Shown: piece by piece, positions 22,972 to 24,161 of the stretch
Numbering within the stretch: position 1 is the stretch's first letter
Layout of the letters: each line of letters opens with the position of its first letter
NCBI RefSeq assembly: GCF_005405585.1
Contig: NZ_BJEQ01000001.1
Location: 558,001 to 622,000 of the forward strand
DNA from: Agarivorans sp. Toyoura001
GTDB taxonomy: Bacteria; Pseudomonadota; Gammaproteobacteria; Enterobacterales; Celerinatantimonadaceae
DNA length: 64,000 nt
Reading direction: 5' to 3'
Translations under genes and position numbers: made by a program
The notes under the pieces: model-generated
Databases searched by the model: none
Told to the model about the DNA's origin: nothing
The model's input: only the letters and a program-made list of their open reading frames with translations

Positions 22972-23844
22972 TTAGATTAACTCTAAACTCTGCATAACAT
23001 TGCGAATACGCGTTTTGGTAGAGTCCGACAATTCGGTAACTGGCAAGCGACATTCTGCTCGACACTTGTTCAGTAAAGACATCGCATATTTAGCGCCAGC
23101 TGGGCTTGGCTCAGCAAACATTGCTTGGTGCAGAGGAATCAACTTATCTTGAATCTCGCTAGCTTTAGCGTAGTCACCGTCTAAAGTGGCTTGTTGCATT
23201 TGCGCACACAGTTTAGGGGCTACGTTCGCCGTTACAGAGATACAACCTTGGCCGCCGCTAATATTGTAAGAAACCGCAGTGGCGTCTTCCCCACTTAACC
23301 AGCAGAAGTCTTGCTCAATCAATTGGCGTTCAAATAGTGGGCGAGACAAATCGCCGGTAGCGTCCTTCACACCAACAATACGCGGTAACTGCGCCAGTTT
23401 AGCAATGGTTACCGGGCTTAAATCTACCACCGCGCGTGGTGGAATGTTGTAAAGCACAATCGGAATATCGGTGGCGTCGTGCAACATCTTAAAGTGTTGA
23501 AATAAACCATCTTGATTAGGGCGGTTGTAATAACCCGCTACATGCAAAGTTGCATCGGCACCCACTTGTTGGGCAGCCTTGGTGTACTCGATAGCTTCAA
23601 TAGGGTTGTTTGAGCCAGCACCCGCGATAACAGGCACACGCCCTTTAGCTTGCTCTACTACCGTTTTCACTACAGCAATATGCTCATCGTGAGTTAGGGT
23701 TGGGCTTTCGCCAGTAGTTCCCACTGGCACAATGCCATGAGTCCCTTGGCCAATGTGCCATTCAACTAACTCGCGAATCGCCGCATAATCAACCTCACCT
23801 TCAATAAAGGGAGTAACCAACGCTACTATCGATCCTTTAAACAT
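22972..23844 (-). CDS. dapA: 4-hydroxy-tetrahydrodipicolinate synthase
   Basis: 290 aa. It condenses pyruvate with aspartate semialdehyde, the first step dedicated to lysine and diaminopimelate. The Schiff-base lysine is K160 (IVGVKDATG) and the proton-relay tyrosine Y132 (LYNIPPRA). GTTGESPTL binds pyruvate. Residues matching the E. coli lysine-inhibition site (two His in the THDEH segment, Asn in GAGSNN, Glu in IEAIE, Tyr in AGYYN) appear kept, so feedback inhibition is likely. One oddity is VAGYYN where the family usually has VTPYYN. The gene is preceded by a leader with a terminator hairpin and a lysine-rich leader peptide, suggesting attenuation. Confidence 0.95.
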
Positions 23845-23876
23845 GCCCGCTCCATCACTTACTTCTAAAATAAAAA

Positions 23877-23899
23877 AACCCGGTCACAGTGGCCGGGTT
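23877..23899 (-). terminator. Attenuator-type terminator hairpin in the dapA leader
   Basis: On the minus strand a 7-bp stem AACCCGG / CCGGGTT, extended inward by CAC/GTG-type pairs, is followed at once by seven T. It lies 33 nt before the dapA ATG and after the leader peptide gene. No complete gene ends immediately upstream on this strand, so it is best read as a leader attenuator. Its 5' arm can pair instead with 23926-23933 (GGCTGGGT with ACCCGGCC, 8 pairs, one G-U). Confidence 0.7.
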
Positions 23900-23917
23900 C
23901 AAAAATACTATTTCGAT

Positions 23918-23995
23918 TTAGTTGCACCCAGCCGTTAACCACCCGCGTTTTAATTCGGGCCGTTTATATTTCTTTAACTTTAAAGAAATCGACAT
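23918..23995 (-). CDS. Putative dapA leader peptide, 25 aa, five Lys
   Basis: A short frame in the dapA leader: ATG at 23995, TAA at 23918-23920, with AAGGA ten bases upstream of the ATG. It encodes 25 residues, five of them Lys (positions 6, 8, 9, 11, 16), with a dense cluster at 6-11 and two Arg. An AT-only hairpin (ATTTCTTTAA / TTAAAGAAAT, 23968-23989) covers the Lys codons. The 3' end of the frame contains the GGCTGGGT segment that can form an antiterminator. Ribosome stalling at Lys codons would leave that segment free, while a ribosome at the stop codon would cover it. Codon and structure fit attenuation by lysine supply; this is inferred. Confidence 0.55.
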   Translation of the reverse strand: MSISLKLKKYKRPELKRGWLTAGCN

Positions 23996-24161
23996 CACAG
24001 ATGTGTCCTTAACAAACGAAATTCTTGCTAGCTAGTTTCCTTAGCACGCACTAAAAGTCAAGTAACCTTAAAAATAAATACTTAGAAGCGGCGATGAGAT
24101 AGCCTTTTCAACGAAAACTTTCTATTATTGCAGCCAATTATGACCGCGATAAAGCCCTATT

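Follow-up and report, generated by a model that had tools for sequence, protein, structure and literature searches.

A candidate lysine-specific leader-peptide attenuator upstream of dapA in Agarivorans and related Gammaproteobacteria

How is dapA regulated when no lysine-binding RNA can be recognized in front of it? Leader-peptide attenuators are textbook regulators for trp, his, thr, leu, ilv and phe, and lysine is known as an amino acid of riboswitches or T-boxes. In the window, that is, the whole stretch of 64,000 nucleotides from Agarivorans sp. Toyoura001 analyzed here, a gene that we take to be dapA from its resemblance to DapA is preceded by a short Lys-rich frame and a terminator hairpin, and an earlier note proposed that these elements follow the logic of the classical attenuators, with lysine as the signal. 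The comparison with relatives supports this proposal, since the frame, its Lys codons and a competing pairing are conserved in them, though the peptides have diverged beyond recognition. We consider it very likely, from comparative sequence evidence, that dapA is under the control of a lysine-specific transcription attenuator that works through the translating ribosome. The elements of the locus are the following:

22972-23844, minus strand: dapA, 4-hydroxy-tetrahydrodipicolinate synthase, 290 aa, with its ATG at 23844
23872-23899, minus strand: intrinsic terminator, AACCCGG (23899-23893), CCGGGTT (23883-23877) and seven T (23878-23872)
23891-23898, minus strand: ACCCGGCC, used by the 5' arm of the terminator and also as the 3' strand of the antiterminator
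23918-23998, minus strand: leader peptide frame (V)MSISLKLKKYKRPELKRGWLTAGCN, start at GTG 23998 or ATG 23995, stop TAA at 23920-23918
23926-23933, minus strand: antiterminator 5' strand GGCTGGGT, within the last codons of the leader frame
24006-24010, minus strand: Shine-Dalgarno-like AAGGA of the leader frame, 7 nt before the GTG and 10 nt before the ATG
24033-24061, minus strand: predicted dapA promoter, found by eye, TTGACT (24061-24056), 17-nt spacer, AAACTA (24038-24033)
24162, on the other side of the dapA gap: start of a divergent neighbouring ORF, an rRNA methyltransferase by eye

The gene itself is widespread, with DapA homologues (E<=0.001) in 192 of the 197 genomes of the order. 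Its ATG lies 32 nt past the hairpin and 27 nt past the T run. The 25-codon frame with five Lys codons, the AAGGA ten bases before the ATG and the hairpin with its T run had been reported in the earlier note, and all of them could be read directly, with the coordinates right. Transcription would start near 24026, as judged from the predicted promoter. A TTGAC(A/T) box is found at the matching place in leaders of the family, Aeromonas, Tolumonas and g28 (a member of group f25, see below), and a consensus promoter/terminator scanner reported neither the dapA promoter pair nor the dapA terminator. As the second promoter box is poor and the scanner was silent, we only infer this promoter and its start site.

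Counted from ATG 23995, MSISLKLKKYKRPELKRGWLTAGCN has 25 codons, with Lys at codons 6, 8, 9, 11 and 16. An in-frame GTG (23998-23996) stands directly 5' of this ATG. Since a start codon (GTG, TTG or ATG) occupies the GTG position in 7/7 members of the genus and the ATG is unique to the window genome, the true leader probably starts at GTG 23998 and comprises 26 codons. All seven genus genomes searched retain the frame, and six carry AAGGA or AAAGGA in the corresponding position, the seventh (L007) being without it. The start-to-stop distance is constant in every leader compared from the genus (7/7), Aeromonas (13/13) and Moritella (10/10), and AAA and AAG are exchanged among the Lys codons in the genus and Aeromonas sets. 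The variation by codon position gave no clear coding signature (third positions made up 9/20, 11/24, 4/14 and 19/45 of the variable sites), in a script that counts back a set number of codons from a common motif and is therefore by itself blind to upstream indels. The short frame with a ribosome-binding site that characterizes attenuators is present upstream of dapA, and its translation is predicted from the sequence.

Regarding the RNA structure, the note had also indicated an eight-pair alternative that excludes the terminator, and this was borne out: GGCTGGGT (23933-23926) and ACCCGGCC (23898-23891) can form 8 pairs, one of them G-U. Folded alone, the antiterminator stretch reaches -17.4 kcal/mol versus -12.4 kcal/mol for the terminator, and both make use of ACCCGGCC, so that the two pairings are mutually exclusive. 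The antiterminator fold was matched by 0/200 shuffles, and the duplex by itself (-17.0 kcal/mol) has p = 0.012 against shuffles; the terminator has a z of -2.9, and for the leader as a whole the advantage in folding over shuffles is only slight (z -1.8, 10/200). No convincing protector hairpin was found in the window, where the CCCG/CGGG pairing within the frame did not exceed shuffles (z +0.65). On reaching the stop codon, a ribosome would cover the antiterminator strand, and one stalled at the upstream Lys codons would leave it free.

Could such a frame appear by chance in this genome? A blind screen of 2,058,571 bases of the 4.65 Mb yielded 1740 ORFs, 148 of them with a terminator-like site upstream, and 104 candidate short frames ending near such a site. 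The dapA leader ranks 6th among the 104. The leaders of two genes presumed from resemblance to be thrA and pheA, which serve as positive controls, rank 2nd (MSVHFVYTTTGTITRITTCGSGWL, G000:C9 near 148629) and 3rd (MKLLNTRFLFGFFFTPPF, G000:C1 near 317127), and the frames in 1st, 4th and 5th place have no evident meaning, the 4th being also Lys-rich. The per-frame p of 1.4e-4 for the dapA leader is uncorrected for 20 residues x 104 frames and does not survive that correction. Four or more Lys in 12 codons are reached by 3/104 frames, the dapA leader included, and against its own shuffles the window leader has a Lys p of 0.010. In a previous screen of 464 kb, dapA was 5th of 47 frames and the first place was, by eye, the end of the ffh gene; the larger screen used a distance of 60 instead of 90 nt and left out frames ending at the stop of a called gene. 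The evidence from the window genome alone is thus only suggestive of something beyond chance, and the case rests on the relatives. In the same genome, a Lys-rich frame LKLFKAKKALKLKT with a terminator-like hairpin (G000:C2:223207-223672, minus strand) lies upstream of an unnamed 154-aa ORF; it outranks dapA in the blind screen and is possibly due to chance.

For the comparison, dapA genes of 53% identity or more were taken as window type. They came from the genus (7/7 genomes), the family (12/12), samples of the order and class, the best 80 dapA loci among the matches listed for a named genome collection, and group searches at E<=1e-95 with hits in 3/63 genomes of the family f95, 17/48 of the order of f161 and 11/194 of the order of Marinomonas. 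Of our family labels, f1 holds Celerinatantimonas, f2 is Moritella, f25 comprises the Aeromonas/Tolumonas loci and f161 holds a Granulosicoccaceae record. Leaders were oriented by tblastn, and the start codons of the listed peptides were picked by eye. There are a few duplicates: L013 and L055 are the same sequence, L077 and L135 the same leader, and G330 and G566 are apparently a single genome.

A Lys-rich frame precedes dapA in Celerinatantimonas, Aeromonas, Tolumonas, Moritella, Marinomonas, f161 and f95. In the genus the peptide is SLKLKKYKRPELKRGW or a near variant, and 5/7 members have Glu in place of the first Lys; elsewhere in the family it is VTNLVSFKLKRKLPK (L010), MGFPSISTEKKTLPKKALKLL (L013) or MVKKIQAKVMIKKMIAFILR (L014); hairpin and T run are retained in these three loci and in 7/7 genus members. 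Aeromonas has MRFNGLKRKHKKSL, g28 of f25 MSVIVKRKPVKLLKRKAVLFFA, Tolumonas MNKWIITRKPSKPDSKPGAYVFA, Moritella MLTLKRKQDKQGKLKPA, Marinomonas MNNNILNKRNGDKRKAKKLCGADVWN, the Granulosicoccaceae record MFCNVPVKVKVKKRFLCGMARWFVAE, other f161 members frames such as MNSALHAKKPTKPVSNKQVAKDARK, and f95 MFNFATHSVKKSKRRSLCGSG. Between families, these peptides have Lys in common and little else. In the Lys cases, the hairpin begins 15-46 nt after the leader stop, and 6/15 f161 leaders fail the terminator rule.

The arrangement does not extend to all the relatives. The dapA leader of a close relative within the family (G007, L012) has a different hairpin and no Lys frame, taken here as a natural loss of the Lys leader. 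No convincing Lys leader was found at the loci of f3 (probably Succinivibrionaceae, with Ruminobacter among those named) or at the alphaproteobacterial dapA loci, where the one Lys-rich frame seen (L112, p = 0.017) lacks a terminator. An E. coli-type dapA is present as well in some genomes of f25, f95 and f161. In f25 genomes with two dapA each (e.g., G075, G056 and G189) the Lys leader is on the window-type copy, and the leaders read for the E. coli-type second copies (L045, L046 and L051) have no Lys frame. At the aspartokinase loci of 12 genomes (21 loci, with gene starts roughly placed) no convincing Lys leader was seen either; at least three Lys in 12 codons occur at 2/21 (L243 and L264), neither convincing.

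To quantify the enrichment, we merged leaders alike at 80% identity, which reduced 186 to 122, of which 87 are of window type and 35 of E. coli type. The set excludes L001, L009, L015, L016, L164-L210, leaders shorter than 200 nt and weak or late tblastn matches, and the short stretches L035-L054 were placed in an identity class by hand. In each leader, and for each residue, we took the 12 consecutive codons richest in that residue in short frames close to dapA and set them against 300 dinucleotide shuffles. Among the window-type leaders Lys is enriched (20/87 at p<=0.05, Fisher 4.9e-9), with the other 19 residues at 0.99 or above; among the E. coli-type leaders Lys gave 2/35 at p<=0.01 and Fisher 0.94, and no residue is enriched overall. 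A terminator rule that ignores the leader frame was passed by 32/87 window-type and 2/35 E. coli-type leaders. When a terminator is present (32 window-type leaders), enrichment is confined to Lys among the 20 residues (14/32 at p<=0.05, Fisher 2e-13), and the 55 without one gave 6/55 and Fisher 0.2. Because relatedness persists among the leaders that remain, these Fisher values are overstated. Some Lys leaders are not significant by themselves, for example the Moritella representative (L035, p = 0.458).

The Lys frame with its terminator recurs within a single lineage of the enzyme. In a midpoint-rooted DapA tree of 95 rows (113 intended, 112 proteins found, E. coli-type rows thinned), the Lys-leader label changes 6 times versus 29 expected, and all 36 Lys-leader rows fall within one clade of 49 (support 100/98, with the bootstrap not settled). 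The labels were set by hand, including the weak cases L072, L073, L217, L226 and L238. One gain followed by a few losses would be the simplest reading of this distribution.

The competing pairing was evaluated in the same leaders. The segment that begins 36 nt ahead of the stop and runs up to the hairpin was paired with the hairpin 5' arm, and the outcome was compared with dinucleotide shuffles. The test comprised 28 of the 32 leaders, since L012, L031, L032 and L071, which have no Lys frame, were removed by hand. Overall, this pairing beats the shuffles (Fisher 1.4e-6, 9/28 at p<=0.05), and 19/28 leaders individually fail. In Aeromonadaceae the antiterminator helix (GCGTAACC/GGTTACGC) spans the leader stop codon, as GCG-TAA/TGA-CC with GGTTACGC or GGTTGCGC, and over 21 sequences 91.7% of its cells are paired, versus 20-40% for slid partners. 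The earlier note had proposed to look in related genera for a conserved Lys-rich frame with covarying terminator and antiterminator arms. The Lys-rich frame, the terminator and the alternate pairing are indeed kept; such covariation did not appear in the antiterminator pairs of those 21 Aeromonadaceae sequences (score reached by 195/500 shuffles, one two-sided change), and some relatives have no such system. For the terminator stem the covariation score was reached by 5/500 shuffles, with just one pair changed on both sides. The switch logic proposed in the note recurs in other families with a different sequence.

Marinomonas presents a variant. Its dapA leaders (L080, L084, L086, L087, L089, L092, L104, L230-L233 and L235-L237) carry a Lys-rich frame of the NGDKRKAKK type, and the hairpin after it has no good T run and fails the terminator rule. 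The ribosome-binding site of dapA is paired in 3/4 of the leaders folded. With this site paired and the T run poor, control may act on translation, and a shift to translation-start control in Marinomonas is possible.

Another candidate is a lysine-binding riboswitch, the kind of leader control described for lysine genes in Gammaproteobacteria and located there mainly ahead of lysC according to the accessible part of PMC5584792. The window genome does have one elsewhere, its only match being at G000:C22:25366-25537 (L001), ahead of an antiporter-like gene. However, the family RF00168 has no match in the window at the gathering score, none in the leader at E<=5 and none in 16 related dapA loci, so that we give almost no credence to a riboswitch as the regulator of dapA. 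No other Rfam family reaches its threshold in the window leader or in the 16 loci; the best sub-threshold hits in the window leader were anti-hemB (E 0.0058, 21.9 bits versus a gathering score of 49.5) and Trp_leader (E 0.15, 19.6 versus 41). The alternative that dapA is controlled by masking of its ribosome-binding site, with the Lys codons as the sensor and no termination, would suit Marinomonas, with its poor T run and its site paired in 3/4 of the leaders. It is very improbable as the general mechanism, as a hairpin with T run stands 15-46 nt after the leader stop in the window, Celerinatantimonas, Aeromonadaceae, Moritella, f95 and 9/15 f161 leaders.

The remaining explanations concern the frame itself. 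Were it a chance ORF in AT-rich intergenic DNA with an unrelated hairpin, the 3/104 comparable frames of this genome (dapA leader included) and the lack of a coding signature in the codon-position test would be in keeping with it. Nevertheless, the enrichment of Lys alone over dinucleotide shuffles in relatives with a terminator (Fisher 2e-13), the start-stop distance kept in 7/7 genus members and the absence of enrichment in the 35 E. coli-type leaders (Fisher 0.94) make this very hard to sustain. Somewhat less remote, and still improbable, is that the basic nascent peptide itself stalls the ribosome, as an arrest peptide or a gauge of translation speed, and works the same terminator/antiterminator switch. 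The leader peptides are Lys-rich, often with Arg, and basic stretches can slow translation. Against this, they share little beyond Lys across families, unlike the known arrest peptides; Arg shows no enrichment relative to shuffles (Fisher 1.0); and the product of the downstream gene makes a lysine precursor. We therefore keep a lysine-specific attenuator as the preferred reading.

This attenuator resembles those of Thr (thrA) and Phe (pheA), and also of His, Trp, Leu and Ilv, in its short frame rich in codons for the end product. The Thr and Phe systems, whose kind of frames occur in the same genome as the dapA leader, likewise have a terminator soon after the frame stop and a competing antiterminator; they differ in that the dapA leader uses Lys codons and that no clear protector hairpin is seen in the window. 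The lysine riboswitch shares its physiological input, but it binds free lysine, needs no reading frame and gave no match in the dapA leaders tested. SEP5, a proposed leader peptide of S. meliloti with six Thr and three Lys codons, likewise puts Lys codons in a short frame in front of a gene of the aspartate family; it is described in the available text of PMC10117765 as lying ahead of an aspartate dehydrogenase gene and conserved only in Sinorhizobium. SEP5 differs from the dapA leader in being mainly a Thr peptide, in being alphaproteobacterial and in preceding an aspartate dehydrogenase gene instead of dapA. The ilvB-II attenuator of Corynebacterium also senses product amino acids through a uORF with terminator and antiterminator; in the accessible part of PMC11109978 it uses branched-chain codons, is restricted to Corynebacterium and lies upstream of ilvB. 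Our literature search found no lysine or dapA leader peptide, SEP5 coming closest and the older key work on priority being outside its coverage, and there is none in the portions available of PMC2965389, PMC10117765, PMC11109978, PMC8632094, PMC2659441, PMC5343134 and PMC5584792. The element is taken here as a real Lys-specific leader-peptide attenuator, apparently undescribed.

In the proposed mechanism, transcription would begin some 180 nt ahead of dapA, and the leader of 25-26 codons would be translated by a ribosome following the RNA polymerase. With ample lysyl-tRNA, the ribosome would reach the stop codon and cover GGCTGGGT, the AACCCGG/CCGGGTT terminator would form, and an RNA of roughly 155 nt would be released. 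When lysyl-tRNA is short, the ribosome would stall in the Lys cluster and leave GGCTGGGT free to pair with the terminator 5' arm, so that dapA would be transcribed. Since relatives in several families keep this arrangement, dapA is probably switched on when lysine-loaded tRNA is short.

A lysine riboswitch is also present elsewhere in many of these genomes. It was matched in 21 of the 29 genome handles tested, including every one from f1, f2 and f25, and thus in tested genomes of the Celerinatantimonas family, Moritella and Aeromonadaceae; the eight handles without a match are one f3 genome and seven of Marinomonas, f161 and f95, with G330 and G566 apparently one genome. In G075 (f25) an aspartokinase match follows the end of the riboswitch at a distance of about 100 nt. 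The gene after the riboswitch of the window genome encodes at least 480 aa and is NhaC-like by eye, not biosynthetic. With the riboswitch present elsewhere in Lys-leader genomes, several lineages appear to read lysine twice, and some of those lacking a match perhaps sense lysine only through the dapA attenuator.

Taken as a whole, the evolutionary picture is one to which we assign about even chances. In it, the lysine attenuator would have arisen once, in one gammaproteobacterial DapA clade, with peptide and stems almost completely rewritten and the Lys codons, the stop-to-terminator spacing and the logic kept; the Marinomonas frame would have moved to translation-start control, and Aeromonas and its relatives would read lysine twice, as free lysine through the riboswitch and as charged tRNA through the dapA attenuator. 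If true, a recurring Lys-codon attenuator would fill a gap among the amino acids of leader peptides and would be a natural sensor of lysyl-tRNA charging. It would also account for how dapA can keep pace with the availability of lysine in Aeromonadaceae, Moritella, Marinomonas and others, where the dapA loci tested carry no riboswitch, and within a single cell two RNA mechanisms would read the same nutrient.
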